Of a DNA stretch of 64,000 nucleotides, positions 19,838 to 55,482 are shown piece by piece. Origin of the DNA: Litchfieldia alkalitelluris (GTDB lineage Bacteria > Bacillota > Bacilli > Bacillales > Salisediminibacteriaceae); assembly GCF_002153425.1 (NCBI RefSeq), contig NZ_KZ119600.1, forward strand, positions 1,347,103 through 1,411,102, read 5' to 3'. Each line of letters begins with the position of its first letter. The first letter of the stretch is position 1. Under the pieces are notes generated by a model, which made no database searches, was not told where the DNA came from, and saw nothing but the letters and a program-made list of their open reading frames with translations. A program made the translations under genes and the position numbers.

Positions 19838-20006
19838 CACACTAACATCAAGAAATAGTTCCCGAACCGGCCGAGTGCCAGAATCTCCGGGCACTATCAC
19901 CAAGAAATAGTTCCCGAACCGCACTAGTCCCAGCTGCTCCGGGCACTAACATCAGAAATAGTTCCCGAACCTCACTAATCCCTGCTGCTCCGGGCACTAT
20001 CACCGA
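19838..20006. repeat. Tandem array A1: three 51-52-bp units
   Basis: Each unit reads about AAATAGTTCCCGAAC...CTCCGGGCACTA. ATAGTTCCC occurs at 19855, 19907 and 19958, so the periods are 52 and 51. It is the same family as the long array at 27.45 kb but more diverged. It lies between the terminator and the nirB promoter. Confidence 0.85.
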
Positions 20007-20093
20007 ACACTTCATTTATATAGTTGCCTCACTTTCCCCCTCCCACCCCTTAAAATGTCGAATTTGTGAAACTGTGAACAATAATTCTCTAGA

Positions 20094-20136
20094 TGTGATG
20101 AATATCACACACAAAAGAATAAATAAAATTTAATAT
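20094..20136 (+). promoter_or_regulatory. Fnr/CRP-type site and -10 box of the nirBD operon
   Basis: TGTGATGAATATCACA (20094-20109) is a perfect TGTGA-N6-TCACA palindrome. The window has nirB, nirD and narK downstream, which are classic anaerobic targets of Fnr in Bacillus. A TAATAT box lies at 20131-20136. If it is the -10, the start of transcription would be near 20143, with the site centred at about -41.5, the normal position for activation by Fnr. Confidence 0.75.
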
Positions 20137-20225
20137 AAGTATATAAAGAGTATTCATACATCACGAATATTAATCTATCAAAATAGTACTTAATTCGAAC
20201 ACACCCATAACTGGAGGGAGTAGTA

Positions 20226-22652
20226 ATGAAACACTTAGTGATGATCGGAAATGGAATGGCTGGAATCAGGGTGATAGAAGAGATCTTACAACAAAATAGA
20301 GAGATGTATCAAATTACTATTTTCGGAGCTGAGCCTCACCCGAACTACAATCGAATCAAATTATCCAATGTACTACAAGGTGATACAACAATTGATGACA
20401 TAATCATGAACGAGTGGGATTGGTATAGAGAAAACAATATAGATCTACATGTAAATGAAGCAATCGTTCAAATTGACACCAATAACAAACAAGTAATCTC
20501 TGAAAAAGGTACAATCGTTTCCTACGACGAGCTATTAATTGCAACAGGTTCCTCTTCTTTTATCTTACCGATACCAGGTGCGGATAAAGATGGTGTAACC
20601 GGGTTTCGTGATATAAAAGATTGTGAAACGATGATCAAGGTTGCGGAGAAATATAAAAAGGCCGTAGTCATTGGTGGTGGTCTACTAGGGTTAGAAGCTG
20701 CGAGAGGGTTACTAAACCTTGGAATGGAAGCTAGCGTAGTTCATTTGGCACCACATCTAATGGAAAGACAACTAGATTCAACTGCTGGTGCGATGCTGAA
20801 AAACGAGTTGGAAGCACAAGGAATGAAGTTTTTCATGGAAAAGCAGACAGCAGAAATTCTCGGTGAGGAGCGCGTAACTGGTCTTCGCTTCACAGACGGA
20901 AGCGAAATCGAGGCAGATCTCATTGTCATGGCCGTTGGAATAAAGGCGAATACTCAGGTTGCACAAAACACTGACATCATTGTGAATCGCGGAATTGTTG
21001 TGAACGACTTTATGGAGACGAACATTCCAAACGTTTACGCTGTCGGAGAATGTGCCGAGCACCGTGAAGTGACGTATGGATTGGTGGCACCACTTTATGA
21101 GCAGGCGAAAGTGCTTGCAGCGAAGTTAACTGGAAACGAAGTCGATGGATATGAAGGGTCTATTGTAGGAACACAATTAAAAGTTGCAGGTGTTGACTTG
21201 TTCTCTGCAGGAGAAATTGATGAAGATGATCGTACAAAATCAATTAAAATACACAATGATTTTGACGGTGTGTATAAGAAGATTCTAATCCGTGATAACC
21301 GCATTGCTGGTATCGTCCTCTATGGCGATACGTCAGATGGTCAAAAGCTATTCCGAATGCTATTGAAAAGAGAAGATTTGACTGGAATGACAAGTACGCA
21401 AATTCTTCACACTCCATGTGGTGGAGGAGGCGGTGGTGAAGACGTTGCTTCCATGCCAGATGATGAACTTGTTTGTGGCTGTAATGGTGTTACGAAGAAA
21501 ACGATCGTTGATGCTATCACAACAAACGAGTTAACGACCGTTGACGAAGTAGGCGGTTGTACAAACGCCGGTCGTTCATGTGGAAGATGTAAAGATTTAG
21601 TCGGTGATATTCTTGCATATACGCTAGGAGATTCTTTTGATAAAAATGCTGCAACGAAGAAAACACTTTGTGGGTGTACCACATTAGATCGAGAAGAAGT
21701 TGTAGCTGAAATTCAAGAGAAGGGTCTCAACTCCACAAAAGAAGTAATGTATGTTCTCGGTTGGAAGAATGAAGAAGGCTGCTCTAAGTGTCGCCCGGCC
21801 CTCAACTATCTACTGGGCATGCTGAATCCTACGGAATATATCGATGAGAGCAATTCACGCTTAGTGAATGAAAAGATGCATGCGAACATTCAGAAGGACG
21901 GAACATACTCCGTTATTCCGAGAATGTACGGTGGTGTGACAACAGCGGAGGATTTGAAAAAAATCGGTGAGGTTGCTGAGAAATATGATGTTCCTCTTGT
22001 TAAGTTGACAGGTGGACAAAGAATCGGTTTATTCGGAGTTAAAAAAGATGATTTGCTTCCAATTTGGGAAGAGCTCGATATGCCTTCTGGATATGCGTAC
22101 GGCAAAACACTTCGTACGGTGAAAACATGTGTAGGTAAGACCTTCTGCCGTTACGGTACACAAGATTCCATGAGTCTCGGAATCGAATTGGAGAAGAAGT
22201 TTGAGCGGTTGGATACTCCTCACAAATTTAAAATGGGCGTATCTGCTTGTCCACGTAACTGCGCAGAATCTGGAATTAAAGATATTGGATTTGTTGGTGT
22301 AGACGGAGGCTGGGAAATATATGTAGCTGGGAATGGTGGTACAGATTTACGCGCTGGTGACCTCCTATGTACTGTCAAAACAGAGGAAGAAGCGCTGGAA
22401 ATGACTAGTGTGTTCCTTCAATATTACCGTGAAACTGCGAATTACTTGGAGCGTACTTCCCATTGGGTAGAACGTATAGGATTGGAAAACATTAAAGAAG
22501 CTATCGCTGATCCTGAGACTAGAAAGCAACTAGTAGAAAGATTAGAAGTGACATTAACACGTTATACTGAGCCTTGGAAAGAAGCACTTGAGAATAAAGA
22601 AATTCAAGAAAAGTTTTATAAAAATCGTCAAATTAAAGTAGAGGTGAACTAA
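20226..22652 (+). CDS. nirB: Nitrite reductase [NAD(P)H] large subunit
   Basis: This 808-residue enzyme reduces nitrite to ammonium in the cytoplasm with NADH. In order: an FAD domain (IGNGMAGIRVIEEI, about 6-19), an NAD domain (VVIGGGLLGLEAARG, about 147-161), two BFD-type [2Fe-2S] segments (CGCNGVTKKTI...CTNAGRSCGRC, about 417-460; CGCTTLDREEV...CSKC, about 482-525), and a sulfite/nitrite reductase domain with CVGKTFC and ACPRNC (about 634-680), which bind [4Fe-4S] and siroheme. GGAGGGAG precedes the ATG. It heads an operon with nirD, three siroheme genes and narK, behind an Fnr-type site. Confidence 0.97.
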   Translation: MKHLVMIGNGMAGIRVIEEILQQNREMYQITIFGAEPHPNYNRIKLSNVLQGDTTIDDIIMNEWDWYRENNIDLHVNEAIVQIDTNNKQVISEKGTIVSYDELLIATGSSSFILPIPGADKDGVTGFRDIKDCETMIKVAEKYKKAVVIGGGLLGLEAARGLLNLGMEASVVHLAPHLMERQLDSTAGAMLKNELEAQGMKFFMEKQTAEILGEERVTGLRFTDGSEIEADLIVMAVGIKANTQVAQNTDIIVNRGIVVNDFMETNIPNVYAVGECAEHREVTYGLVAPLYEQAKVLAAKLTGNEVDGYEGSIVGTQLKVAGVDLFSAGEIDEDDRTKSIKIHNDFDGVYKKILIRDNRIAGIVLYGDTSDGQKLFRMLLKREDLTGMTSTQILHTPCGGGGGGEDVASMPDDELVCGCNGVTKKTIVDAITTNELTTVDEVGGCTNAGRSCGRCKDLVGDILAYTLGDSFDKNAATKKTLCGCTTLDREEVVAEIQEKGLNSTKEVMYVLGWKNEEGCSKCRPALNYLLGMLNPTEYIDESNSRLVNEKMHANIQKDGTYSVIPRMYGGVTTAEDLKKIGEVAEKYDVPLVKLTGGQRIGLFGVKKDDLLPIWEELDMPSGYAYGKTLRTVKTCVGKTFCRYGTQDSMSLGIELEKKFERLDTPHKFKMGVSACPRNCAESGIKDIGFVGVDGGWEIYVAGNGGTDLRAGDLLCTVKTEEEALEMTSVFLQYYRETANYLERTSHWVERIGLENIKEAIADPETRKQLVERLEVTLTRYTEPWKEALENKEIQEKFYKNRQIKVEVN

Positions 22653-22653
22653 T

Positions 22654-22974
22654 ATGAACGCTTTAAAAATCCCAGTAAAAGTTGCAACCTATGAGGAATT
22701 GGTACCACAAGTTGGACAGCCAGTCTTAATCAATGATAAGCCCATTGCTCTCTTTAAAGTAACGAGTGGTGAAGTGTATGCGATAGAGGACAAGAGCCCG
22801 CACCCAAAGGGCGGCGTTCTATCAGAAGGGTTAGTTAGTGGTCACTATGTGTTTTGTCCCGTATATGATTGGAAAATCTCACTAGCAGACGGCCTAGTCC
22901 AAGCACCTGATGAAGGAAAGGTACAAACCTATAAAGTAGAAGTTCGCGATGGAGATGTGTATGTCAGCTTGTAA
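22654..22974 (+). CDS. nirD: Nitrite reductase small subunit (Rieske-like)
   Basis: The 106-residue protein begins one base after the nirB stop. It has the Rieske-like fold of NirD: SPHPKGGVLSEGLVSGHYVF then CPVYDWKISL and DGLVQAPDEG. A true Rieske protein has CxH and CxxH ligands; here these are SPH and CPVY, so it should not bind a cluster. NirD proteins are known to lack the ligands and to act as a structural partner of NirB, so this is expected. Confidence 0.95.
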   Translation: MNALKIPVKVATYEELVPQVGQPVLINDKPIALFKVTSGEVYAIEDKSPHPKGGVLSEGLVSGHYVFCPVYDWKISLADGLVQAPDEGKVQTYKVEVRDGDVYVSL

Positions 22975-23045
22975 GCACAGCTTTAATAAATAGAGGGAAA
23001 AGCGCCGCTAGATCGCTGTCTCCCTCTTCACAGGGGGAGAACAGC

Positions 23046-24518
23046 ATGAAACAAACAGGAAGCGTCTATTTAGTTGGAGCAGGACCTGGTGATATCGGAC
23101 TTATTACAGTGAAAGGTTTAGAAGCGATAAAAAAAGCAGATGTTATTTTATATGACCGACTTGCAAACCCTAAACTTCTTGATTTTGCAAAACCGGATTG
23201 TGAGCTCATTTACTGTGGTAAACTCCCACAACGCCATTTTTTACGACAAGAATCAATTAATGATTTATTAATTGTGAAGGCACTTGAAGGGAAAACTGTG
23301 ACACGACTTAAAGGTGGAGATCCGAGCGTCTTTGGTCGTGTTGGGGAAGAAGCTGAGGGACTAGCAGAACATGGTATTCGATTTGAAATTGTGCCTGGTA
23401 TCACGTCAGGAATCGCTGCACCCATTTATGCTGGAATTCCTGTCACTCATCGGGAGTATGGCACGTCGTTTGCGGTTGTTACTGCTCACGATAAATCGAA
23501 CAATGGCCAACCAAACATTGATTGGGAAGGACTTGTCAAAGGGGTCGACACGATCGCCTTTTATATGGGAGTAGCAAACCTGCCGTTCATCTGTGAGAAC
23601 ATGATAAAACACGGCAAGGCATCATCTACTCCTGTGATCTTGATTCAATGGGGGACTTTCGGTCGCCAGAAAACATTGGAAGGAACGCTTGAAACGATTG
23701 CTGAAAAAGTCCGTTCATCAGGTTTTACCAATCCAGCCATTACCCTTGTTGGAGATATCGTTAATGTCCGTGAAAAATGTAAGTGGTTTGAAAACCAACC
23801 TCTTTTTGGCAGCCAAATTCTGTTGGCACGTACAAGTGAAGGGGAAAGTGATCTTGCTCGTCAACTAAGGGAGCAAGGAGCGGACGTTATAGAATATCCA
23901 AAGTGGAAAAGTACGCCTGCCATCATGGAGGAAGACATCCTATCCAACCTTTGTACCTATGATAAAGTGCTGTTTACATCTCCTGAAAGTGTAGCACAAT
24001 TTTTTACTATCCTTGCAGAACGGGAGATTGATATTCGCCACCTTCATGCGGAAATCTATGTTCCTTCAGTAAAGTCTAAAAAAGCCCTTTCCTCTCGAGG
24101 AATTGTAGCAAAATTAGCAACTACTATGGAAGAGGCTGGTACCCTTTTAATCATCGGCGACAGTACAATACGCTCTCAAACGCTTGAAAATACGGTGAAC
24201 TACGGTTCCCATGATGTACTTATCACTTCTGAAAAAACGATAGATGAACAATTTTTACCGATTGTGGAGCGCATGTTGGAAGAAGCGGACATTGATACAA
24301 TCATCTTCCCAAGCAGCTTGTCCATACAGCCAATCGTGGAAAGTAGCAGTGCGGCGATTCATACGTTACTAGGAACTTCCAAGATCGTTGCTATGGGGGA
24401 AAAAACGGAAATAATGGCTGCAACTCATGGTTTGAACGTTAATATAAGACCTACTAAGCCAACGGTAGAAGAGTTGATAAAATCCTTAACCATAGATGAG
24501 GAAAAAGTGTTGATATAG
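23046..24518 (+). CDS. cobA: CobA-HemD fusion: uroporphyrinogen-III methyltransferase/synthase
   Basis: The 490-residue protein joins two siroheme-pathway enzymes. Residues 1-245 are uroporphyrinogen-III C-methyltransferase (VYLVGAGPGDIGLITVKG near 7, RLKGGDPSVFGR near 87, VPGITSG near 117), which makes precorrin-2 with SAM. Residues 255-485 look like uroporphyrinogen-III synthase (ILLARTSEGESDLARQL, VLFTSPESVAQF). The C-terminal half is diverged and its activity is not assured. AGGGGGAGAA precedes the ATG. It supplies siroheme for NirB, in line with its position 71 bases behind nirD. Confidence 0.93.
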   Translation: MKQTGSVYLVGAGPGDIGLITVKGLEAIKKADVILYDRLANPKLLDFAKPDCELIYCGKLPQRHFLRQESINDLLIVKALEGKTVTRLKGGDPSVFGRVGEEAEGLAEHGIRFEIVPGITSGIAAPIYAGIPVTHREYGTSFAVVTAHDKSNNGQPNIDWEGLVKGVDTIAFYMGVANLPFICENMIKHGKASSTPVILIQWGTFGRQKTLEGTLETIAEKVRSSGFTNPAITLVGDIVNVREKCKWFENQPLFGSQILLARTSEGESDLARQLREQGADVIEYPKWKSTPAIMEEDILSNLCTYDKVLFTSPESVAQFFTILAEREIDIRHLHAEIYVPSVKSKKALSSRGIVAKLATTMEEAGTLLIIGDSTIRSQTLENTVNYGSHDVLITSEKTIDEQFLPIVERMLEEADIDTIIFPSSLSIQPIVESSSAAIHTLLGTSKIVAMGEKTEIMAATHGLNVNIRPTKPTVEELIKSLTIDEEKVLI

Positions 24519-24576
24519 ACATCAGCAAGGATGAAGTGATTGATGAAAGAATTGGATTTTGACAGGAGGGATCGTT

Positions 24577-25305
24577 GTGGAAGCAGTCGTGTATGCCGGA
24601 CACGGAAGCCGGACAGAATCAGGTAACAGGACATTTACTAGCTTTGTGAACCGTGTAACGGAAAAGGTCGACGTGCCTATACAAGAGATAGGATTTCTGG
24701 AATCGGCAACGCCCAGCATCCCTGACGCCATAGAAACGGCAGTGAGGAGAGGGGCCACTTCCATTACTGTGATGCCTGTGCTTCTGATGCCAGGGGTTCA
24801 TGTGAATGAAGATATTCCGGACATCATCTCCGTGTCAAAAAAGCAGTATGAAAATGTTCAGTTTCATTATGGTAGTCCATTAGGAGCAGATGAGCTGGCG
24901 ATTCAAACAATGCAAAGTAAACTGCCTGATGATGCGGATGGCACTATTGTTTTAGTCGGGCACGGCAGTAGGGATTCTGAGGCAAAAACAGCATTTACGG
25001 AGTTAACAAACTTATTTGCTGAACAGACTGGCTTCCAATCAGATCAAGCCTTCATAAAAAGTACAGCACCGTCGATTTCAGAGAAGCTCCAACAATTGCT
25101 GGAAGAAGGGCATCAAACGATTTACCTCCTTCCATACCTCCTGTTCACTGGAGGTTTCATGAATAAGATCGCAAGGGAGATTGCCCCCTTTCAAGCGAGT
25201 TATGGCGACTGTCGTATCATACTTTGTGAACCGGCAGGCTTTGATAATCGAATGGAATCTTTGTTGGAAAAACGAGTAGAAGAAGCTAGAACGAGAAGGT
25301 CGTAA
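24577..25305 (+). CDS. sirB: Sirohydrochlorin ferrochelatase (CbiX-like)
   Basis: The start is the GTG at 24577, with CAGGAGGGATC upstream; an in-frame TTG at 24559 precedes that ribosome site and is unlikely. The 242-residue protein has two CbiX halves, each opening with a metal-binding His: YAGHGSRTESGNRTF (about 6-20) and LVGHGSRDSEAKTAF (about 127-141). It inserts iron into sirohydrochlorin in siroheme synthesis. Genes of the same path flank it. Confidence 0.9.
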   Translation: MEAVVYAGHGSRTESGNRTFTSFVNRVTEKVDVPIQEIGFLESATPSIPDAIETAVRRGATSITVMPVLLMPGVHVNEDIPDIISVSKKQYENVQFHYGSPLGADELAIQTMQSKLPDDADGTIVLVGHGSRDSEAKTAFTELTNLFAEQTGFQSDQAFIKSTAPSISEKLQQLLEEGHQTIYLLPYLLFTGGFMNKIAREIAPFQASYGDCRIILCEPAGFDNRMESLLEKRVEEARTRRS

Positions 25306-25370
25306 TGAAAAGCAAGTAAAACAACTTTTTAATATAACAATTGTATTTTTTTAAGAAAGGCGAGATAACG

Positions 25371-25979
25371 ATGTATCCAGTGATGCTTCATCTCTGCAGT
25401 AAGCCTATCGTCGTCATCGGTGGAGGCGCTGTCGCAGAGCGCAAAGTAGTAGGTCTGCTAGATGGCGGCGCAACGGCGATCACGTTGGTTAGTCCTGAAA
25501 TAACCGATACCTTAAGGGAGCTTGTTCGTGAGGGAATCGTTGTTTGGCAGCAGAAGCAGTATGAGAAAAATGATTTAGAAGGTGCATTCTTAATTATTGC
25601 TGCCACGGATTGTGCTAGCGTTAATACTGAAGTTTTGCAAGGGAAGGCTCCAAATCAACTGGTCAACATCGCCGATAACCCTGGGCAATCTGACTTTCAA
25701 GTTCCTGCAGTTTATCGAAATGGTGACTTAAGCATTGCCATTTCCACAGGGGGAGCAAGTCCCATGCTTGCTAAAAAAATTAAGCGGGATATCGCTCATC
25801 TATTTGATGAGGAATACAACGAGTTTATTAAATTTTTATCCATGGCACGCCAAAGGATCCTTGCAGAAATATCAGATCCTGGAAAAAAGCGGGTGCTGTT
25901 ACGAGAAGTGATGAGTGACCGTTTCTTATCAAGTGGGTCGAGGGCGGAACTATTTGAAGAGTTGCTTCGGCGGAGATAA
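25371..25979 (+). CDS. sirC: Precorrin-2 dehydrogenase (SirC/Met8-like)
   Basis: From the ATG at 25371 (AAAGGCGAG upstream) the protein has 202 residues. It opens YPVMLHLCSKPIVVIGGGAV then AERK, the NAD-binding loop of Met8/CysG-N. NIADNPGQSDFQVPAVYRNG (about 95-114) and ISTGGASPMLAKKIKRDI (about 122-139) are conserved family segments. It oxidises precorrin-2 to sirohydrochlorin, between the CobA and SirB steps. It lies 65 bases after sirB and 68 bases before narK. Confidence 0.92.
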   Translation: MYPVMLHLCSKPIVVIGGGAVAERKVVGLLDGGATAITLVSPEITDTLRELVREGIVVWQQKQYEKNDLEGAFLIIAATDCASVNTEVLQGKAPNQLVNIADNPGQSDFQVPAVYRNGDLSIAISTGGASPMLAKKIKRDIAHLFDEEYNEFIKFLSMARQRILAEISDPGKKRVLLREVMSDRFLSSGSRAELFEELLRRR

Positions 25980-26047
25980 ATATTAGTTTTTTGTAGAAAT
26001 TTAAATGTAATTGAGATTATTAATTTGGGATATTGGGGGAGTACTGG

Positions 26048-27454: not shown

Positions 27455-27963
27455 TGGATAGTTCTCGAAAGTTGAGTTGGTCGAATGCTCCGGGCACTAA
27501 TGTGGCCTGATAGTTCCCGGAGCCTGATCAGGTCGAGAGCTTCGGGCACTAATGTGGTCTGATAGTTCCCGAAAGCTGATCAGGTAGAGTACTTCGGGCA
27601 CTAATGTCGTTTGATAGTTCCCGGAGCCTGATCAAGTCGAGTGCTCCGGGCACTAAAGTCGTCTGATAGTTCCCGAAGCCTGATCAAGTCGAGAGCTTCG
27701 GGCACTAATGTGGTCTGATAGTTCCCGGAGCCTGATCAAGTCGAGAGCTTCGGGCACTAAAGTCGTCTGATAGTTCCCGAAAGTTGATCTGGTCGAGAGC
27801 TTCGGGCACTAATGTGGTCTGATAGTTCCCGGAGCTTTATCAGGTCGAGAGCTTCGGGCACTAATGTCGTCTGATAGTTCCCGAAGCCTGATCAGGTCGA
27901 GAGCTTCGGGCACTAATGTGGTCTGATAGTTCCCGGATCCTGATCAAGTCGAGTGGTTCGGGC
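27455..27963. repeat. Tandem array A2: about ten 52-bp units
   Basis: The unit is GATAGTTCCCGAAGCCTGAT, then CAAGTCGAGAGCTTCGGGCA and CTAATGTGGTCT. GATAGTTCCC recurs about every 52 bases from 27508 to 27924, with a diverged first unit near 27460. Inside each unit CCCGAAGC and GCTTCGGG form a stem. Successive units alternate between CCCGGAG and CCCGAA left arms, so the true repeat is 104 bp. It starts about 110 bases behind the narK stop and passes without a phase change into array B. Confidence 0.93.
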
Positions 27964-28022
27964 AAATAAACTAGATTTAATTTACCTTTATCCGATCCCC
28001 CCAAGAGCTTCGGGCAAATAAA
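27964..28022. repeat. Tandem array B, left part (before the IS)
   Basis: Unit: CGGGCAAATAAACTAGATTT, then ATTTTACCTTTATGCGATTC and CCCCAAGAGCTT. The first CGGGC is at 27959 and the next at 28011, exactly 52 bases. The array is cut here by the insertion element and continues at 29423. Confidence 0.9.
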
Positions 28023-28157
28023 TGGACTTATGTCAAGAAAGTAGAGTCCCTTTTTCTCTGGAAAACAGTCAGTAATCCTTGTCTAATGCTAGTGTATTTC
28101 AACTTTTAAGTCCTTGTAAAATTTGGTTATTCATAGTTTGTCATCTTACTGTCCGAC

Positions 28158-29003
28158 TTATGACGCTTTTAATTGCTGGCCTGCGAGAAAATTAAATTCG
28201 TATTGATCTGGGCTTACATACCCTAAAGTTGAATGCCTACGGCGCTTGTTGTAACGTGCACTTATGTAATAATTAACAGCCTTCATCGCCTCTGCTTTTG
28301 TGTTGAAGCGTCTTCTGTAAATCAATTCTTTCTTGATTGTGGCATGAAAAGATTCAATACAAGCATTATCGTAAGGGTTTCCTTTGCGACTCATACTAAT
28401 CTGGCAGCCTTCTTCCTTTAGGAGATCTATATATTCCTTCGAACAATATTGAGACCCCCTATCTGAATGATGAATTAGCTTTTCTGACGGCGACCTGTTA
28501 ACCAGAGCCATCTTTAAAGCAGTACTACACAATTCTACACGCATGTGGTCAGCCATATACCAACCCACAATTTTACGTGAGAAGAGGTCCATGACCGTCG
28601 CTAAATAAACCCAGCCTTGTACTGTGCGGATGTAAGTTATATCAGTAACCCATAACCTGTCTGGTTCATCGACAGTAAAATTTCGTTTGACTAAGTCTGT
28701 ATATAACGGCAATTCGTGATTAGAGTCTGTTGTCACGACATACGCTTGTTCCTGGGTTGCTTTTAATCCCATTTCTTTCATCAAGCGTGCAACTGTCTTC
28801 TGAGAAACCGTATATCCCCATTCAATGAGGTCAGCGTGGATACGTGGACTACCGTATGTTCCAAAGCTCTCATGAAACGATTTATTGATCTTTTGACATA
28901 GCTCTTGCCTATAAATCTCTTTCTCAGTGGGACCCTGTCGTTGACGCCCCACCCACTTGTAATAACCACTAACTGAAACCTTTAATACCTTGCACATCTT
29001 CAC
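28158..29003 (-). CDS. IS3-family transposase OrfB (DDE integrase)
   Basis: This is the catalytic half of the IS3 transposase (281 residues from its first ATG). The rve core shows the DDE triad: WVTDITYIRT (first Asp), HHSDRGSQY (second Asp) and NACIESFHATIKKEL (Glu). The N-terminus has SVSGYYKW and a helix-turn-helix-like segment. The same frame stays open upstream through the end of orfA to about 29076, so the real product is probably the OrfAB fusion made by -1 slippage. A stand-alone start is weak, as no ribosome site precedes the ATG. Confidence 0.93.
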   Translation of the reverse strand: MKMCKVLKVSVSGYYKWVGRQRQGPTEKEIYRQELCQKINKSFHESFGTYGSPRIHADLIEWGYTVSQKTVARLMKEMGLKATQEQAYVVTTDSNHELPLYTDLVKRNFTVDEPDRLWVTDITYIRTVQGWVYLATVMDLFSRKIVGWYMADHMRVELCSTALKMALVNRSPSEKLIHHSDRGSQYCSKEYIDLLKEEGCQISMSRKGNPYDNACIESFHATIKKELIYRRRFNTKAEAMKAVNYYISARYNKRRRHSTLGYVSPDQYEFNFLAGQQLKAS

Positions 29004-29044
29004 AACCGTATGTTCATCACGATGCGTATCTATGAATTGATACT

Positions 29045-29341
29045 TTATTCTTGGTTTCGCGTGAAGATGTGCATTGCCTTTTTTAAGATTTCGTTCTCCT
29101 CTTCTTTCTCACGAAGCTGCTTTTCATACTCAGCTTTTATCTTTTTAAGTTCCTTCGGTGTAACATACTCTTCTCCTTCTGATTTGCTTCTTAACTCTTC
29201 ACGAGCCTCCCTTACCCACCGCGATACAGACTTTGGCGAGATCTCAAGTTCATAAGCCAATTCTGTTGTTTTTCGTCCTTCCTCTAACACTAACTTGACT
29301 ACATATTCTTTATATTCTTGTGAATAACGTTTCTGAGACAC
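29045..29341 (-). CDS. IS3-family OrfA (DNA-binding) with -1 frameshift site
   Basis: The 98-residue protein starts SQKRYSQEYKEYVVKLVLEE and has a helix-turn-helix (TTELAYELEISPKSVSRWVR), then a leucine-rich coiled coil. Near its end the heptamer TTAAAAAAG (reverse strand, about 29077-29085) is a classic slippery site. A -1 shift there would continue as GNAHLHAKPRIKYQFIDTHR into OrfB without a stop. Confidence 0.92.
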   Translation of the reverse strand: MSQKRYSQEYKEYVVKLVLEEGRKTTELAYELEISPKSVSRWVREAREELRSKSEGEEYVTPKELKKIKAEYEKQLREKEEENEILKKAMHIFTRNQE

Positions 29342-29422
29342 TGGGCCACATCCCTCTCCTATTAGTTAATTTAATTATAGACTGTGTCCCATTACTAAGT
29401 CTCTACTTTTTAGACTAACTCA

Positions 29423-30215
29423 ATAAAACCGATTTATTTTACCTTTATGCGATTCTCCCAAGAGCTTCGGGCAAATAAACTAGATTTATTTTACCTTTTC
29501 GTGATACCTCCGAGTGCTTCGGGCAAATAAACTAGATTTGTTTTACCTTTATGCGATTCCCCCAAGAGCTCCGGGCAAATAAAACCGATTTATTTTACCT
29601 TTACGCGATTCCTCCACGTGCTTCGGGCAAATAAACTAGATTTGTTTTACCTTTATGCGATTCCCCCAAGAGCTCCGGGCAAATAAAACCGATTTATTTT
29701 ACCTTTATAAGATCGAGCCAAGTACTTCGGGCAAATAAAACCGATTTATTTTACCTTTACGCGATTCCTCCACGTGCTTCGGGCAAATAAACTAGATTTG
29801 TTTTACCTTTATAAGATCCAGCCAAGTACTTCGGGCAAATAAACCAGATTTATTTTACCTTTACACGATTCCTCCAAGATCTTCGGGCAAATAAAACCGA
29901 TTTATTTTACCTTTATAAGATCCAGCCAAGAGCTTCGGGCAAATAAACTAGATTTATTTTACCTTAATGCGATTCCAACAAGAGCTTCGGGCAAATAAAC
30001 CCAGTTTATTTTACCTTTATGCGATTCTCCCGAGTGCTCCGGGCAAATAAAACCGATTTATTTTACCTTTACGCGATACCTCCAAGAGCTTCGGGCAAAT
30101 AAACTAGATTTATTTTACCTTTATGAACTCCCCTCAAGAGCTTCGGGTAAATAAACCCATTATATTTTACCTTTACACAATTCCCCCATGAGCTTCAGGC
30201 AATTAAACCAAATTT
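29423..30215. repeat. Tandem array B, right part: about fifteen 52-bp units
   Basis: CGGGCA recurs at 29468, 29520, 29572, 29624 and so on to about 30194, a strict 52-base step. Each unit has AAATAAA...TTTATTT, an inverted repeat, within CGGGCAAATAAANNNNNTTT. Two central variants (ACTAGA and ACCGA) mix along the array. The last units (30130-30215) are decayed. Bases 30216-30396 show no gene. Confidence 0.92.
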
Positions 30216-44695: not shown

Positions 44696-44806
44696 ATGAA
44701 AGGTATAACATTTGAAATTCCAAATGGTTATGGAAAATAACTATTAGACATTTTCCTTTTTTGTGGTGATGAGCATGCTATATCTTTCTACTTTAAATGT
44801 AGTTAA
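44696..44806 (+). pseudogene. DUF2691-like remnant with an in-frame stop
   Basis: An ATG with AGGGGGAG nine bases upstream reads MKGITFEIPNGYGK, a stop at 44738, and then in the same frame LLDIFLFCGDEHAISFYFKC and a second stop. The start resembles the N-terminus of DUF2691 proteins as I recall them (GISFEIPN.YG..L). A complete member would be over 100 residues, so most is missing. It runs directly into repeat array C. The family call is tentative. Confidence 0.45.
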
Positions 44807-44819
44807 TTTTCCCTTTGCA

Positions 44820-45325
44820 AAAGTAGTAAGATGCCTTCGGTAAAAAAAACGAATTTAATTTCCCTTTGCGGAGGGTGAGAGATGGTTACGGTAAAATAAA
44901 CCGAATTTAATTTCCCTTTGCGGAGGGTGAGAGATGGTTACGGTAAAATAAACTGAGTTTAATTTCCCTTTGCAGAGGGTGAGAAATGGTTACGGTAAAA
45001 TAAACTGAATTTATTTTCCCTTTGCGGAGGGTGAGAGATGGTTACGGTAAAATAAATCGAGTTTAATTTCCCTTTGCAGAGGGTGAGAGATGGTTTCGGT
45101 AAAATAAATCGAATTTAATTTCCCTTTGCGAAGTGTTGGAGGTGCGTTCGGTAAAATAAATCGAGTTTAATTTCCCTTTGCGGAGGGTGAGAGACGGTTA
45201 CGGTAAAATAAACTGAATTTATTTTCCCTTTTCAAAGGACGAGAGGTGTGTTCGGTAAAATAAACCGGATTTATTTTCCCTTTACTTAGAGAACGAGAAG
45301 ATTTCAGTCAAATAAACCAAAACAA
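44820..45325. repeat. Tandem array C: about ten 52-bp units
   Basis: Unit: CGGTAAAATAAACCGAATTT, then AATTTCCCTTTGCGGAGGGT and GAGAGATGGTTA. CGG recurs at 44838, 44889, 44941, 44993, 45045, 45097, 45149, 45201, 45253 with a decayed copy at 45305: one step of 51, then 52 each time. The AAATAAA...TTTATTT half matches array B column by column. Confidence 0.93.
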
Positions 45326-48855: not shown

Positions 48856-48869
48856 TCATCATGGGAGAG

Positions 48870-49428: not shown

Positions 49429-50291
49429 AGATTGCTGTGAACCAACTCAGCTTAAAATATGGGAATGAATTAGCATTAAGTGAGGTGAGTTTTGATATAG
49501 ATAGTCCGAAGATTTATGGACTTTTAGGAAAAAATGGGGCTGGGAAAACATCATTCCTCTCTATTTTAGCTTCCTATCGTGAACCGACATCTGGGTCCGT
49601 TACTGTTAATGGAGAAACACCTTTTGAAAATGCCACGGTGATGCAGCAGGTGGCCTTTTTATACAATAAAGATTACAAAGAGGAAACAGACAATGTTCTC
49701 GGGATATTGCAAGATACTGAGCGATACCGTCCTCATTTTGATAGGGAATACGCCGAATACCTCGTCAATAGGTTTAACCTTGATGTAAAAAAACCAGTTA
49801 AACAGTTTTCGAAAGGAATGCAATCAGCACTTAATGTCATTATTGGATTAGCAAGTAGAGCACCAATTACTATTTTCGATGAAGTATACCTAGGTATGGA
49901 TGTGCCATCACGTGATATTTTTTATAAAGAATTATTAGAGGATCAGGAGAAGCATCCAAGGGTTATTATTCTCTCAACACATCTCGTTTCTGAAATGGAG
50001 TACTTGTTTGATGAGGTCATCATTTTAGATAAGGGGAAAGTTATTATTCATGAGGAATTTGATTCCTTGATTAATAAAGGTGTGAAAATTATTGGAAACG
50101 GAGAAGCAGTCGATCGTTTTGTACAATCAAAGAATCAAATTCATGTGGAGCAATTAGGTCAGACAAAGGCTGTGATGATTTATGGTGAACTTAGTGACCA
50201 TGATCGAATGGTGGCGAGGGAGCAGGGGCTGGAATTAGAACCCATCTCACTCCATGAGCTATTTTTACACGTAACGAAGGAAGGTGCTTAA
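49425..50291 (+). CDS. ABC transporter ATP-binding protein (YtrB-like)
   Basis: The GTG overlaps the regulator stop. The 288-residue ATPase has Walker A GKNGAGKTS (about 35-43), the signature FSKGMQSALNVI (about 126-137) and Walker B ITIFDEVYLGMD (about 147-158), followed by STHLVSE (switch His). The Walker B continues DEV, not DEP. It pairs with the permease two bases downstream. In B. subtilis, relatives respond to cell-wall antibiotics, but the substrate here is unknown. Confidence 0.9.
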   Translation: MKIAVNQLSLKYGNELALSEVSFDIDSPKIYGLLGKNGAGKTSFLSILASYREPTSGSVTVNGETPFENATVMQQVAFLYNKDYKEETDNVLGILQDTERYRPHFDREYAEYLVNRFNLDVKKPVKQFSKGMQSALNVIIGLASRAPITIFDEVYLGMDVPSRDIFYKELLEDQEKHPRVIILSTHLVSEMEYLFDEVIILDKGKVIIHEEFDSLINKGVKIIGNGEAVDRFVQSKNQIHVEQLGQTKAVMIYGELSDHDRMVAREQGLELEPISLHELFLHVTKEGA

Positions 50292-50292
50292 T

Positions 50293-51093
50293 ATGAAACA
50301 ACCTCGGATTTTTCAAAAAGTAGCATTAGATATGTTCTGGGCTCAGTTTCAATGGGCACTTGGTTTTTTAGGGATCATGTTGGGGATACACATCTTCAGA
50401 ATCGTTACATCATTCATGAGGGGAACCGATGTTGATACTTATTTCAATATGGTTTTTGTTGCTGCAAATATTTTCATCTTTATCTTAGGGATCATATGTA
50501 TGAACTTCCTTAAGCATTATGTTGGAAATGGTGTCACTAGGAAGGACTACTTTAAAGGTGGGCTAATCGCATCACTTGGTTTATCGATTGTCCTTCCAAT
50601 CATCACTTTACTTGTATCTGCAGTAAGTCAGTTAGTGATTGGTCAGATTGATAGAGTGACGATTAATGAGCCTAATATTAATTCCGTTGTACTAGATATT
50701 GAGTTAGATGGAAATATTATTGGCAATATCATTAGTAGTGTCGTCCAATCTTTCGTTGTTCCTCCGTATGTTGATCCGAATGGTGCTTTGATACTAGCTT
50801 TAGGCATCGTCAGTCTTAATGTTTTTATTTATTATTTAATAGGTTGGATGATTCATGCAGGTTTTTATCGATTAGGTACATTAGGTGGATTAGGCTTCGT
50901 TCTTGTTGGAGTAGTGACTTTAATTTTAAAAGACACGCTTTTACGAATCATACTAGACTTACCAATAGCTGAAATGGTTCAGTTTCTAGATTTTGTCCCA
51001 CAAAGTGTTGCGGGGATTACCGTGTTTTTACTAATGATGATGTTGATTGGCATCATTCGTACCTTAACAAAGAGGGCTATGATAAAAATCTAA
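50293..51093 (+). CDS. ABC transporter permease
   Basis: From the ATG at 50293 (GGAAGGTG upstream) the protein has 266 residues and six predicted membrane segments (about 20-38, 52-72, 92-115, 165-186, 195-215 and 235-255). No common motif beyond hydrophobic segments is visible, as usual for YtrC-like permeases. It is the last gene of the GntR-ATPase-permease operon. Confidence 0.85.
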   Translation: MKQPRIFQKVALDMFWAQFQWALGFLGIMLGIHIFRIVTSFMRGTDVDTYFNMVFVAANIFIFILGIICMNFLKHYVGNGVTRKDYFKGGLIASLGLSIVLPIITLLVSAVSQLVIGQIDRVTINEPNINSVVLDIELDGNIIGNIISSVVQSFVVPPYVDPNGALILALGIVSLNVFIYYLIGWMIHAGFYRLGTLGGLGFVLVGVVTLILKDTLLRIILDLPIAEMVQFLDFVPQSVAGITVFLLMMMLIGIIRTLTKRAMIKI

Positions 51094-51146
51094 ATTGCAT
51101 TTAAAGTGCGTATGAACCCAATTAAGACATTTTTCAATGTATAAAG

Positions 51147-51185
51147 AAGCAGAGGACCTTTGTTACTTGGTTCTTTGCTTTTTTA
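51147..51185 (+). terminator. Intrinsic terminator of the GntR-ABC operon
   Basis: AAGCAGAGGACC pairs (with two G-U pairs) with GGTTCTTTGCTT, followed by TTTTTATTT. Confidence 0.8.
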
Positions 51186-51296
51186 TTTCATAAATAAAAT
51201 TAAACATGTTTTGAGTTTATTGACTAATTTTAGAATAAAGGAGAAAGCTATAGATACCCCTAACACAGCTTCAAAACCACATAAAAGGATGATACC

Positions 51297-51812
51297 ATGC
51301 ATCTTATCACTACAATCATTGTCATTATTGCTGTTATATTAAAAGGTGATTGGAAAAACTGGGAAAAGTTTCATACTACAATGCTTTACATTGCATTATG
51401 CAATTTAGCTTATAACTTTTTGACGGCTAACTACTTTTTGTGGCGCTTAGATGCTGATTTTTTATCTAATCATTCTCTAACGGAGATGTTGTATACATTT
51501 ATCGTATTCCCAGCAACAGTGTTAATGTTTTTAACGCATTATCCAAAGAGTATAAAAAAGCAAGTCCTTCACAATGGAATGTGGATCACGATTTATATTT
51601 TATGGGAAGCTTTTTTCCTGTTAACAGGTAGGATTCAATATCAGTACGGCTGGAACATTTGGTGGTCATTATTTATATTATGCTTAATGTTTCCATTTAT
51701 AAGGCTTCATCATACGAAACCATTGTTAACATATGTTTTATCATTTATATTTACAGTTTTATTTATTTTATTTTTTGATGTTCCTGTACATATTCCAGTT
51801 GAATTGCGGTAA
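51297..51812 (+). CDS. CBO0543-like membrane protein
   Basis: The 171-residue protein has five membrane segments (about 2-15, 28-48, 62-81, 96-113 and 120-160). WKNWEKFHTTMLYIALCNLA near 19-38 and WNIWWSLFILCLMFPFIRLH near 120-139 are typical of the CBO0543 group found in Clostridia and Bacilli. AAAAGGATG precedes the ATG. Function is unknown. A second, longer protein of similar layout is encoded at 53440. Confidence 0.7.
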   Translation: MHLITTIIVIIAVILKGDWKNWEKFHTTMLYIALCNLAYNFLTANYFLWRLDADFLSNHSLTEMLYTFIVFPATVLMFLTHYPKSIKKQVLHNGMWITIYILWEAFFLLTGRIQYQYGWNIWWSLFILCLMFPFIRLHHTKPLLTYVLSFIFTVLFILFFDVPVHIPVELR

Positions 51813-51990
51813 AAAATGGTTAACGGTTTTTGAGGTACATTCCAGTCGAACGAATAGTAATGCATGTTCATGTTTACGATAGGTAACAGAACCTGTTTTT
51901 CTGATGACATCTTCTTTTTCACATGAGGGTTCATTTGTCATGTAACCCGTATGAATGCGATACTACTCAACACTAAAGGAGAAGGAATGA

Positions 51991-52218
51991 ATGAAAAAAC
52001 CTGCAGAATTTGCTGATCTAGGGGAAGTTATCGTCGTTTCAGAGGTTTTTCAATTAAATACATTTCAAACAGTATCCTATTTGGAAAAGGGGATAATGGA
52101 GGTATTTAAGGATAGAGAAGCTTTTTTTGAAAAATACGGGGATAAGGACGATTATGAAGAATTAGAGGATTGGTGTGAGTTGAGTACGGGGAAAATTTTT
52201 ACAAAGGTTAAGCAATAA
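51991..52218 (+). CDS. Small acidic hypothetical protein
   Basis: The 75-residue protein follows AAAGGAGAAGG and an ATG. It is soluble and acidic, with LGEVIVVSEVFQLNTFQTVS in the centre and GDKDDYEELEDWCELS near the end. It has no membrane or signal segment. I do not recognise it. Behind it 52225-52270 holds GGGGCAGACCCC and GGGAGGTCCCC, weak hairpins. Confidence 0.6.
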   Translation: MKKPAEFADLGEVIVVSEVFQLNTFQTVSYLEKGIMEVFKDREAFFEKYGDKDDYEELEDWCELSTGKIFTKVKQ

Positions 52219-52370
52219 GTATTACGGGGCAGACCCCAATTCAGTATTGTTTTACTGTTCTAGGGAGGTCCCCATTATAGTTATGTTTATGTTTACATTA
52301 ATGGGGAAAGGTATCGCATATATACAGGGGGCCATGGAAGTCACTTGGGAAAAAGGGGCTTCGGCAGGCT

Positions 52371-53093
52371 CTATAAACGATAATACTTTACAAGTTCGGG
52401 GTACTCCTTTATCTCCTGCTTACCTTTTTCACTGAGGGCATAGACGCCTCTTTTGACTCTAACAAACCAACCGTAATAATTTTTGCTAAGGATGGATTGT
52501 GTTTTCTTCCCAGTTCCCATTTGGAGAAGTCCCTTGGGAGATAATTCACCGTGTTTTTCCAAGTAACAAGCTATTTGAATGCAGCTTTCTCGATAGGCGG
52601 TCATAATTTGCTTTCTGCTGGAACCACCGATATTGTAATCGCCACTTCGCCCATCGATTTCCTTTATTATCTTCTGCCTGAGGTATTTGGCTTTCCCCAT
52701 GCTGATGGATCGATGAAAAGGGGTAGGTTGAATGATAACTTCCACTCTTTTTCGCTTCTCTGTATAGGAAACGAGGATAAGACCTAATTCTAATCTACGC
52801 AGTAAATGGCAAGTATCTCTCCATTTTTTTGAGCGAGGATTGTGTTTTTTCGGTTTTGGTATTGCGATATATACGTGTTCTGACATTCGTTGCCTTTTTG
52901 TTCCTTGAATGAGCAAATCCACGCTTAAGTTTAATTTCAATTCTACAATGATTAAGACGTCATCTTTCATGACTGCCATATCACAATCTTTCACTTCTCC
53001 GTACACGTCGTACCCTTTACGCTTAAAGTACTTTTGAATTGGTTCATATAAATCAGATTCTCTTAATTTCCGTTTTTCATTCACTACCAGCAC
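52371..53093 (-). CDS. DUF2161 PD-(D/E)XK-type nuclease-like protein
   Basis: The 240-residue soluble protein has a restriction-endonuclease-like core: KRKGYDVYGEVKDCDMAVMK then DDVLIIVELKLN (about 25-55), giving D...ExK residues. Basic residues are frequent. The C-terminal half has a winged-helix-like part (ACYLEKHGELSPKGLLQMGT). This fits DUF2161, a putative PD-(D/E)XK phosphodiesterase family. GTG is the start; an internal GTG at 53084 is an alternative. Target unknown. It is convergent with the small acidic gene. Confidence 0.78.
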   Translation of the reverse strand: MLVVNEKRKLRESDLYEPIQKYFKRKGYDVYGEVKDCDMAVMKDDVLIIVELKLNLSVDLLIQGTKRQRMSEHVYIAIPKPKKHNPRSKKWRDTCHLLRRLELGLILVSYTEKRKRVEVIIQPTPFHRSISMGKAKYLRQKIIKEIDGRSGDYNIGGSSRKQIMTAYRESCIQIACYLEKHGELSPKGLLQMGTGKKTQSILSKNYYGWFVRVKRGVYALSEKGKQEIKEYPELVKYYRL

Positions 53094-53439
53094 CGTCCAG
53101 TTAAAAAATACTAGACTTTATTTTATCATATAATATAAAAAATTGGGTTTCTGGGATATTCTGCTGTTTTGGGACGGTTTAACCATATCGTGCCTGAAGC
53201 TCTAGTTGTTTTTCAAAAAAATCGAGTGTTTTTCTTAAAATGAACGTGGTGCTTATAGTTTGGTGACTGGACTGACTTCCGTGCGTTAATGCTTTATTAT
53301 ACTGGGGATCAGGTGCTTTTTCGAATGGGCATTACGATTTAGTAGTTTTTTTAGGTTGAATTTGATTGCATAATTTTTTCATCAATTAGCAAAATAATAA
53401 AAATGTAATGGTTAATCTAACAAGATCGGGGTTAGTTTA
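53094..53439. other. Intergenic region, no gene seen
   Basis: About 346 bases between divergent genes. Short runs of A and T occur, but I see no convincing promoter pair, repeat or small gene. Confidence 0.4.
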
Positions 53440-54018
53440 ATGAAATATAATGAATACTTGGATAAGATCTATCAAACAAATGAGGAATGGAACGAACTCA
53501 TATCATCCTATTGGCATGATTTTTCTAGTTTTGATGCGTGGCAATTTTGGATGGTTTTTCTCATTTTGATACTGCCGCTTCTACTTCTCATCATGATAGT
53601 TGATCGGAAGCGGCTCTTTGAATTATTTTTTTTCGGATACACCGTTCACATACTTTGGACGTACGCAGCAAATTTCCTAGAAAGTCATAATTACTTAGTT
53701 CATAATTATTTTTTAACTCCATTTTTGCCGACCTCTCTTAATATGACGGCATCAGCACTACCTGTAGGTTTCCTTCTAGTTTACCAGTACTGTACAAATC
53801 GTCAGAAGAACTTTTATATTTATGCTGTCATTTTGTCTGCCGTATTTGGAATTGGATTTGCAACCGTGTCTGATTGGATTGACTTAATTAATTTTAATAA
53901 AGGGATGAATCAAATTTATCTCTTTATGATCGATGTAGTTATCGCATTTACTGCCTACTGGTTTACGAGGCTTGTTAAGCGTGTATGGAAAAAGGCAGGG
54001 GGCAGGAGTGTTTACTAA
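53440..54018 (+). CDS. CBO0543-like membrane protein, longer form
   Basis: The 192-residue protein has an N-terminal soluble helix (YNEYLDKIYQTNEEWNELIS) then five membrane segments (about 36-54, 62-80, 92-112, 128-146 and 156-174) and a basic tail. WQFWMVFLILILPLLLLIMI and the later VSDWIDLINFNKGMNQIYLF are similar to CBO0543-type proteins. Function unknown. A terminator follows at 54125. Confidence 0.65.
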   Translation: MKYNEYLDKIYQTNEEWNELISSYWHDFSSFDAWQFWMVFLILILPLLLLIMIVDRKRLFELFFFGYTVHILWTYAANFLESHNYLVHNYFLTPFLPTSLNMTASALPVGFLLVYQYCTNRQKNFYIYAVILSAVFGIGFATVSDWIDLINFNKGMNQIYLFMIDVVIAFTAYWFTRLVKRVWKKAGGRSVY

Positions 54019-54124
54019 TTCACTACTTTTTTGCCTAATTTAAAAATGAAGACGAGCGTAGAAAATGAAATAGACTGTATTCTGTATTTGTGCCAACAAC
54101 TTTATTTTTTAAGAGAGAATTATA

Positions 54125-54165
54125 TAAAAAAGACAATTATGCCTTTATGGGTAATTGTCTTTTTA
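54125..54165 (+). terminator. Intrinsic terminator
   Basis: AAAAAGACAATTA and TAATTGTCTTTTT pair perfectly around a loop of about 12 bases, giving a bidirectional A/T-flanked hairpin. Confidence 0.85.
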
Positions 54166-54253
54166 GTCTAGCTAATAGAAGTTAACTCCGTTTGTTGACC
54201 TCTTAGCTTATATTTGGTGTACGGTAGTAATATTGTATTGAGGGGCGAGTGTA

Positions 54254-54376
54254 TTATATAATTCGACGTTGGTGGCGAAGTTCGATTTGATTTCTGTATT
54301 CGTTTAAATGTTTTGTCACCTGATACTCTCTTTCTACATTAGGTCTAAACTTTCTTTTTATGATAGCTAAGATCAT
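54254..54376 (-). CDS. 40-residue basic protein
   Basis: On the reverse strand an ATG at 54376 follows GTGAGGTG by about five bases. It reads MILAIIKRKFRPNVEREYQV then TKHLNEYRNQIELRHQRRII and stops. The product is strongly basic, with an amphipathic helical character, and could bind nucleic acid or membrane. I do not recognise it. The good ribosome site and clean codons support a gene. Confidence 0.55.
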   Translation of the reverse strand: MILAIIKRKFRPNVEREYQVTKHLNEYRNQIELRHQRRII

Positions 54377-54577
54377 TTTTAACACCTCACTTGTTTGTTT
54401 TTCTTACTTATATTCTAGCTATAATCTAGAAAAGCCAAAACGTACTGGAGGTTGGTTTTCTCTCAATCTAAAGTCTGATATACATCTCAACCTAGGGTGA
54501 GATTAGTTAGTCCAATTTACTAGGTAAGGCGAGAATCGATATAGTTGAGAGTAGCTTAAAAGGAGGGGAAGAATTAA

Positions 54578-55158
54578 AAATCTCATATCGGATCAAAGGC
54601 TGATCAGGTATGAAAACATGAAATAAAGAAATCTCATACCAGATCAAGGGCTGATCAGGTATGAAAATAAGAAATTTAGAGATCTCATACCATATCAAAG
54701 GCTGATCAGGTATGAAAACAAGAAATAAAGAAATCTCATACCAGATCAAGGGCTGATCAGGTATGAAAATAAGAAATTTAGAGATCTCATACCATATCAA
54801 AGGCTGATCAGGTATGAAAACAAGAAATAAAGAAATCTCATACCAGATCAAAGGCCGATCAGGTATGAGAAACGAATAAATGAAAATCTCATACCGGATC
54901 AAGGGATGATCAGGTATGAAAACAAGAAATTAAGAAATCTCATACCAGATCAAGGGCCGATCAGGTATGAGAACATGAAATTAAGAAATCTCATACCAGA
55001 TCAAGGGCTGATTAGGTATGAGAAAGGAGGAAATGAAAATCTCATACCGGATCAAGGGCTGATCAGGTATGAAAATAAGAAATTTAGAGATCTCATACCA
55101 GATCAAGGGCTGATCAGGTATGAGAACATGAAATTAAGAAATCTCATACAAGATCATA
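54578..55158. repeat. Tandem array D: twelve 51-bp units
   Basis: ATCTCATA occurs at 54580, 54631, 54682, 54733, 54784, 54835, 54886, 54937, 54988, 55039, 55090 and 55141, a step of exactly 51 each time. Each unit holds CTCATACCAGATCA...TGATCAGGTATGAG, a long inverted repeat. In the first half of the array, units alternate GAAATAAAGAA and GAAATTTAGAG, so the larger repeat is 102 bp. Both strands are open in one frame because 51 is 17 codons. Confidence 0.95.
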
Positions 55159-55379
55159 AGGAAATAAGTACCACCTACTTTACAAAATCACTTATATAAT
55201 TGGGAACAAGAACTTTACTGTGATATGCCTAAAAAAGGTAGCTTTACAGGTGTAACTTTGCTAAATTTGTATAGTTGATCATTTTATCAATACTCATAAC
55301 AAAAATTGGTTAATGTATTTATATATGGTGATCACTTTTGATTTATATCGAGGAAATCAGAAATCGCAAGTGATGAGCC

Positions 55380-55482
55380 GCTAATCGAACGCGAAAAACG
55401 CTGAAAGCCAAGAACTCGCGTGAGATAAGAAGCTAATCGAACGTGAAAAACGCGAAAATCTTGCTAAGGAACTCGCGTGGGA
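55380..55482. repeat. Tandem pair E: two 52-bp units
   Basis: GCTAATCGAACGCGAAAAAC and GCTAATCGAACGTGAAAAAC start at 55380 and 55432, 52 bases apart, each ending in AACTCGCGTG. ACGCGA...TCGCGT is an inverted repeat within the unit. Bases 55159-55379 hold no gene. Confidence 0.8.

Follow-up and report, generated by a model that had tools for sequence, protein, structure and literature searches.

In the sopC centromere of the F plasmid, units of about 43 bp are repeated in tandem and each contains one inverted repeat, to which a dimeric protein of the ParB type binds; there is a single such array, on the plasmid, beside its own partition genes. In eukaryotic satellites, unit length and a protein box outlast the sequence. 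Repetitive extragenic palindromes (REPs) are defined by a GTAG or CGTC tag at one end in the cited part of PMC3733652. In bacterial interspersed mosaic elements (BIMEs), regularly spaced REPs alternate in orientation and the segments between them vary substantially in length, as stated in the cited part of Nunvar et al. (PMC2817692), where rolling-circle formation of BIMEs by REP-associated tyrosine transposases (RAYTs) is also proposed. In E. coli and Klebsiella, REPs serve as insertion sites for the IS3-family insertion sequences (ISs) IS1397 and ISKpn1 (PMC1525189, cited part). Here we describe tandem arrays of palindromic units in a 64,000-nucleotide stretch of the Litchfieldia alkalitelluris chromosome (hereafter the window; positions 1,347,103-1,411,102 of the 4,873,469-bp contig NZ_KZ119600.1) and their counterparts in the rest of the chromosome and in relatives.

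Judged from their sequence, these arrays are a fast-evolving satellite class of imperfect palindromes, repeated head to tail in units of 51-53 bp in intergenic DNA. Arrays of relatives have other consensus units, other arm patterns and other positions; unit length and dyad symmetry are therefore more durable than sequence or place and outlast both between species. Full-text literature searching, with subscription papers mostly outside its coverage, found no description of such arrays among the papers listed.

Arrays of the window and of the chromosome

Tandem Repeats Finder (TRF) was run on the window. Arrays A, B, C and D of the original prediction, which had been made from the letters of the window alone, were recovered by TRF, and the two-unit array E, which is not in the TRF listing, was confirmed by direct reading. 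The features are as follows.

19840..19999, plus strand: array A1, 3.1 units of 52 bp by TRF; palindrome CGGGCACTA-11 nt-TAGTTCCCG; lies between a terminator-like hairpin (by eye) and nirB
27479..27964, plus strand: array A2, 9.3 units of 52 bp by TRF; arms as in A1, loop and linker different
27960..28022, plus strand: B-type units in register with the end of A2, cut by the IS element; direct reading
28023..29422, minus strand: IS3-type insertion sequence of 1,400 bp; transposase open reading frame (ORF) 28158-29003 on the minus strand, with Pfam domains rve, HTH_21, rve_2 and rve_3
29423..30215 (TRF 29422-30215), plus strand: array B, 15.3 units of 52 bp; GGGCAAATAAA-5 nt-TTTATTTTACC; higher-order period of 156 bp (3 units)
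44803..45283 (TRF 44838-45283, 8.6 units), plus strand: array C, about 9 units of 52 bp; GGTAAAATAAA-5 nt-TTTAATTTCCC; linker of 25 nt
54572..55156, plus strand: array D, 11.5 units by TRF, mostly of 51 bp; TCATACCAGATCA-5 nt-TGATCAGGTATGA
55380..55483, plus strand: array E, two units at 55380 and 55432 (52 bp apart); arms ATCGAACGCGAA / CTCGCGTGAGAT; direct reading

Imperfect palindromes were found in the units, in agreement with the predicted inverted repeat per unit. The step of 52 bp holds for A, B, C and E, whereas the 51-bp step claimed for D holds only for the most part: the D array of the window is the loosest, with six of its 10 inner units at 51 bp, two at 50 and two at 52. Likewise, the five predicted kinds do differ in sequence but are not all independent: A and B have the left outer arm and the register in common, and C is similar to B. 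Just ahead of the IS element, A2 gives way to B units that keep its register (CGGG at 27907, 27959 and 28011). Array B, first taken to be continuous from 28 to 30.2 kb, is in fact interrupted by this 1,400-bp element, which sits at the loop of a B palindrome and is flanked at both ends by ATAAA; the family name IS3 is our reading of its domains and ends. The family of array E builds long arrays elsewhere in the chromosome. Terminator-like hairpins precede A1, C and D (by eye). The whole window gave no Rfam match at the gathering score, and a plasmid search with the DNA of A and B gave no match.

The chromosome was sampled by 80 further 20-kb stretches which, together with the window, amount to 81 stretches and 1.664 Mb (34% of the chromosome); individual stretches are cited below by locus label (L) and genomes by genome label (G). 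A census open to any period was taken in the first 61 stretches, window included (1.264 Mb), for arrays with at least three copies and a TRF score of at least 100. Twenty-seven of the 31 intergenic arrays have a period of 51-53 bp, the other four having periods of 9, 21, 38 and 128. The peak at 51-52 bp that was to be looked for across the genome is thus present, and a wide spread of periods, named beforehand as the outcome that would speak against a common length, did not occur. In all 81 stretches, 47 arrays of period 50-54 bp and at least 2.2 units were collected (29 at 52 bp, 17 at 51 and one at 53), which comprise about 630 units and 2.0% of the bases sampled. The arrays are present in a 4.87-Mb contig, and also in two congeners each represented by one contig.

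Approximately eight arm families were distinguished in this sample, the letter names beyond E being assigned in the present analysis.

Family A: CGGGCACTA-11-TAGTGCCCG (or TAGTTCCCG); period 52
Family B/C: GG(G)NAAATAAA-5-TTTAATTTCCC or -TTTATTTTACC; period 52
Family D: CATACCNGATC; period 51, with 52 in one array that the motif rule sorted as D
Family E: CGCGTGNGAT/ATCGAACGCG; period 52 or 53 (53 once)
Family F: AGTCCGCATT-7-AATGCGGACT; period 51
Family G: AGTCTTCATT-7-AATGAAGACT; period 51
Family H: CCGACAGATTTG; period 52
Family I: TGTCCGC-13-GCGGACA; period 52

The period follows the family, with nearly one period per family, and a single array fell outside the families of the motif rule. 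In many families about 27-29 bp of the unit belong to the core dyad, which is longer in D, E and H, and what remains is linker. An asymmetric mismatch is found in many of the arms. Several arrays also repeat at a higher order, with three units (156 bp) or six (312 bp) to a period, as seen in the window (29422-30215 and 44803-45283) and in L012, L014, L029, L044 and L048. Block copying was considered and rejected: when unit similarity was compared by distance, six of 19 arrays peaked at three units and the others at 1, 2, 5, 6 or 8. A separate tandem array of 128-bp units with 99% matches (L032, 3996-4780) lies outside the 52-bp class.

Constraint, turnover and genomic context

Unit statistics were computed for the 40 arrays with at least five units (549 inner units), the remaining 7 of the 47 arrays being shorter. 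The inner units measure 52 bp (386 units), 51 (127), 53 (30), 50 (5) or 41 (1), and 525 of them have exactly the modal length of their own array. The least regular arrays are D of the window (6/10), L028 (5/8) and L027 (27/32 at 53 bp, five at 52). The same 549 units carry 2,663 substitutions and 108 indel events, and 24 units show a net change of length; neither the substitutions nor the net changes are counts of independent events, since many units share changes by descent, and 13 of the 108 indels are false insertions in one array of 14 units (L054, 4939) whose consensus is one base shorter than the mode. With that array skipped, 53 units in 39 arrays bear indels, of which 30 combine a cancelling insertion and deletion and 23 change length, compared with 0.6 and 1.4 under a substitution-only null; the excess of cancelling indels is suggestive only, because the null breaks linkage and the 30 units sit in 8 arrays, so that descent inflates their number. 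The original prediction had offered selection or length-measuring copying as the reason for the constant length. The length is indeed constant across differing sequences and the contrast between 24 net changes and 2,663 substitutions supports selection, but part of the constancy within families is due to descent.

Conservation in the 40 arrays is 0.961 for arms, 0.870 for loops and 0.856 for linkers (Wilcoxon p 1.3e-11 for arm vs. linker, 1.0e-6 for arm vs. loop); the arms are thus about 3.7 times less divergent than the linkers. Arm changes are mostly one-sided (381), and of the 29 two-sided changes 16 still pair. With so few paired changes, the arms are held as sequence, and compensatory evolution inside the arrays, considered as a candidate, proved weak.

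Thirteen consensus units contain GGGCACTA (10 from the sample of the chromosome and three from L002 and L003), and all of them have an 11-nt loop and a total of 52 bp. The median identity of their linkers in the better orientation is 0.42, compared with 0.32 after shuffling, and 27 of the 78 pairs lie above the 95% level of shuffled linkers, some of them in opposite orientation. Part of the A arrays have therefore been dispersed inside the genome and have diverged there, while the thirteen units show no net change of length.

A length of 52 bp is close to five turns of B-DNA. The spacing of AA/TT shows excess power at 10.4 bp in units of this genome (40) and of relatives (19), a level reached by none of 200 mononucleotide shuffles, which destroy the palindromes as well as any AA/TT phasing. 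Harmonics 1, 7 and 9 are raised as well. The predicted placement of all units on one face of the helix is therefore in line with the 10.4-bp excess but is not proved by it.

Relatives were sampled at 128 loci (2.59 Mb in total), of which 80 are named nirB loci (1.64 Mb), 34 are stretches of congeners and 14 come from other families of the order; no coding filter was applied. The 68 arrays with at least three copies include 29 at 51-52 bp, 20 at 20-21, 4 at 41-42 and 15 at other periods (five of them at 15 bp), so that the main periods are close to five, two and four turns. The 51-52-bp class, which was to be sought in relatives as a check, was accordingly found in several genera with other consensus sequences. 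Arrays of 51-53 bp occur in 12 of the 80 named nirB loci (mainly in Neobacillus, also in Litchfieldia, Pseudoneobacillus and Halalkalibacter), in 8 of the 34 congener stretches, which cover all five sampled congeners, and in one of the 14 from other families. An array of this class also lies at a fetched pattern match in G006, a sixth congener.

The arms themselves are not retained. In the L. alkalitelluris genome, the exact arm pattern of A has 222 occurrences, that of D has 87 and that of F/G has 60, and the search, which was limited to these three patterns, found none of them in 59, 34 and 34 relatives, respectively, among which are eight congeners (one of them 76% complete). Position is labile as well. 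At the orthologous sites beside flgL (6 stretches), lipA (5) and cshA (6) in congeners, a 52-bp array is present in only one of 17 stretches and has another sequence, and no array precedes nirB in Evansella tamaricis. The NirB of E. tamaricis, at 93% identity, is the nearest named one found to that of the window, whose own record may be missing from that comparison, and by this protein the organism would probably be an Evansella species. A 27-unit, 1.4-kb array (L070, 8369-9802) lies between flgK-like and flgL-like genes, named by reading their proteins, and the 1.8-kb stretches adjoining flgL in six congeners are without a counterpart of it. The pattern TTTTGTCC-N15-19-GGACAAAA was rejected as a general second family, as it was found in three of 35 genomes, none of them L. 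alkalitelluris, and did no better than a reversed control; of the matches fetched, those in G039 and G006 lie in or beside 52-bp arrays and that in G014 does not. Among relatives we also observed arrays of 20-21 (and 41-42) bp with motifs such as CTCGGATAAG or GGCGGATAAG (L081, L085, L089, L105, L107, L110, L145, L149, L172 and others); within nirB loci they often lie about 6-7 kb downstream of nirB, and the shorter period possibly corresponds to two helical turns.

The context of the arrays was assessed against ORFs of at least 90 aa from a simple script, which is not an annotation, and in gaps of more than 150 bp. The 44 of 47 arrays that have both neighbours inside their stretch fall into 30 co-directional, 11 convergent and 3 divergent gaps, compared with 344, 82 and 135 among the other gaps (n = 561). 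Divergent gaps are under-represented (3/44 vs. 135/561, Fisher p 0.008) and convergent gaps tend to be over-represented (p 0.08); one of the three divergent cases was created by the IS element of the window. Because divergent gaps are avoided, the arrays lie mostly downstream of a gene. In the chromosome sample, the surroundings of the replication terminus hold 2 arrays in 32 stretches vs. 45 in 49 stretches elsewhere. An origin-biased chromosome function was nevertheless rejected and the scarcity is given as an observation only, as pattern matches of D and F/G include terminus loci between the stretches and the congener G003 has arrays at 2.4 Mb of a 4.9-Mb contig.

Two IS3-type elements were located at seven places, the first in the window, in L002 and as a short remnant in L003, and the second in L004-L007. 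At six of the seven places the copy lies in a 51-52-bp array (families A, B/C, F and I); in L006, the flank that was read is no array. Five of the six array-borne copies sit at or beside the palindrome loop and the sixth (L007) in a linker. The IS transposases thus target palindromes of differing sequence, as they could do if hairpins are extruded or if outer arms common to the palindromes are recognized.

Origin of the fixed unit length

We tentatively favor an explanation in which a DNA-binding protein would recognize each palindrome as a dyad site, and the fixed pitch of about five turns would keep the complexes on one face of the helix. Each arm family would correspond to one dyad-symmetric protein specificity; neighboring complexes would stand on the same face at a fixed distance, units that gain or lose a base would be selected against while the letters of loop and linker drift, and copy number would shift via recombination between units. 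The arrays might then act as cooperative docking platforms in chromosome organization, anchoring or protein sequestering. Docking is favored because the arms read as sequence, the linkers are free in sequence but fixed in length, and the periods (about 21, 42 and 52 bp) are near whole turns; arms conserved as sequence with little compensatory change also fit reading by a protein better than a pure hairpin. The 525 of 549 inner units at modal length, the shared geometry of the 13 units with GGGCACTA and the avoidance of divergent gaps count in its favor too. Several observations weigh against this explanation. The period differs by one base between families (51, 52 or 53 bp), array D of the window varies internally (6/10 at the mode), part of the length constancy within families comes from descent, and the 10.4-bp AA/TT signal is not unique among the harmonics. 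The arrays are mostly absent from orthologous sites of congeners (1/17 stretches; none before nirB in E. tamaricis), so that no single array can be essential. About eight arm families, with the three searched patterns being species-specific, demand several proteins or one that changes fast, and the binding protein remains a putative one.

A rather doubtful alternative places the gauge in a copying enzyme. A REP-transposase-like or hairpin-processing enzyme would take two adjacent palindromes on single-stranded DNA and amplify the segment between them, e.g., by a rolling circle, with a geometry that allows 51-53 nt only; the arrays would then be selfish. This explains the birth of arrays at 52 bp better than docking does, and rolling-circle formation has been proposed for BIMEs (PMC2817692, cited part). 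Folded as single-stranded DNA, nine of the 10 chosen consensus units form the expected hairpin and the tenth, C, forms it only weakly (z of -3.2 or below for eight units, -1.15 for C and -1.55 for E). The absence of most arrays from orthologous sites and the relatedness of some A arrays at different loci also suit such copying. The L. alkalitelluris genome has five matches to Y1_Tnp, four of them with open frames of 218-281 aa, and Y1_Tnp genes are found in the six congeners and in the one genome of another family that show 52-bp arrays; however, their presence says little and does not discriminate, because they were found in 29 of the 35 genomes searched. Motif counts within about 1.5 kb of the four long Y1_Tnp genes (L050-L053) gave none of the A-I arms, save one F half-site in L052. 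A RAYT origin of the arrays, rejected on this ground as a separate candidate, survives only as a possible source within the copying alternative. An enzyme acting at birth alone also leaves the fixed length during linker divergence unexplained. A separate dispersed palindrome, GGGACCAGGTCCC, was noticed in L050, L053, L026, L028 and L060, and hence near two of the four long Y1_Tnp genes (L050 and L053); it may be the genome's own REP.

It is unlikely that the arrays are a passive satellite, i.e., one ancient 52-bp palindromic array that was inherited and dispersed, with slippage and unequal crossing over keeping the register and the period persisting as small indels are rarer than substitutions. 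Inheritance does account for part of the length constancy within families, and the linker pairs above the shuffled level (27/78 among A units, with 3 of the 13 units from L002 and L003) are those of related arrays. Units of A and B share one register in the window, differing families abut in L122, L164, L203 and L207, and the three-unit higher-order repeats of some arrays are consistent with ordinary unequal exchange. On the other hand, arms about 3.7 times less divergent than linkers and a period kept across genera despite unrelated sequences speak against a passive array. The ratio of indels to substitutions in bacteria is roughly 1:10, and the 24 net length changes against 2,663 substitutions are far below it, with the reservation that descent leaves neither count independent.

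A function in RNA, in which transcribed strings of hairpins would act in transcript termination, in 3'-end protection or as sites of an RNA-binding protein, is very unlikely: it agrees with the avoidance of divergent gaps, the position downstream of genes and the good single-stranded folding of most tested units (computed with DNA parameters), but the arms of several families (A with TAGTTCCC, F and E) and of some relatives mismatch as C.T or A.G, neither of which pairs in RNA (by eye), covariation within arrays is slight, the window has no Rfam match, and A1, C and D come after terminator-like hairpins (by eye). A coding repeat is rejected for the class, as originally stated, since 51-bp arrays (17 codons) are open in some frames whereas 52-bp arrays cannot hold one frame. 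In the 61 stretches, 24 further arrays of score at least 100, 16 of them of period 51-52, overlap ORFs of a simple prediction; chance open frames can cross arrays whose 51 bp equal 17 codons.

In a broader form, which we consider possible though short of probable, the satellite class would be defined by geometry and not by sequence. Bacillaceae and their relatives would repeatedly rebuild intergenic arrays with new palindromes, and a conserved machine that binds or makes DNA of a given pitch would hold one class at five turns (51-53 bp) and a second at two turns (20-21 bp). If length and symmetry are what is conserved, these bacteria would contain a DNA-binding or DNA-copying machine that measures about 52 bp and has its sites in about 2% of the genome sampled, and the arrays would be a bacterial counterpart of eukaryotic satellites in organisms that can be grown and engineered.

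Comparison with known systems

The arrays resemble clustered regularly interspaced short palindromic repeats (CRISPR) in their regular step and in having a palindromic element per unit, and differ from them in having no unique spacers within an array, as loops and linkers are 86-87% conserved. A search for Cas1 (PF01867) gave no match in the L. alkalitelluris genome, the control matching in 9 of 14 genomes. As spacers are not unique and no Cas1 gene was found, a CRISPR identity of the arrays is excluded, in agreement with the original prediction. The F plasmid sopC centromere is similar in its tandem units with one inverted repeat each. In contrast to it, the present arrays comprise about eight arm families and, by extrapolation from the 47 found in 34% of the chromosome, probably more than 100 arrays.

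RAYT-linked REPs and BIMEs are the closest known kind, and one of the features by which membership is judged, short imperfect palindromes in many copies between genes, was found here. By eye, the 45 consensus units of this genome and 19 of relatives share no GTAG or CGTC tag of the kind that defines REPs in the cited part of PMC3733652, and the Y1_Tnp genes are not flanked by the A-I arms, apart from the half-site mentioned above. As with IS1397 and ISKpn1, the IS3-type elements of L. alkalitelluris sit in palindromes, in a host of another phylum and in palindromes that differ. The likeness to REPs and BIMEs thus extends to clustering, several families per genome, spacers that differ largely from cluster to cluster without relationship and palindromes that harbor IS3-type elements, whereas the units described here, unlike the alternating and variably spaced REPs of BIMEs (PMC2817692, cited part), stand head to tail in one orientation at a fixed 51-53 bp.

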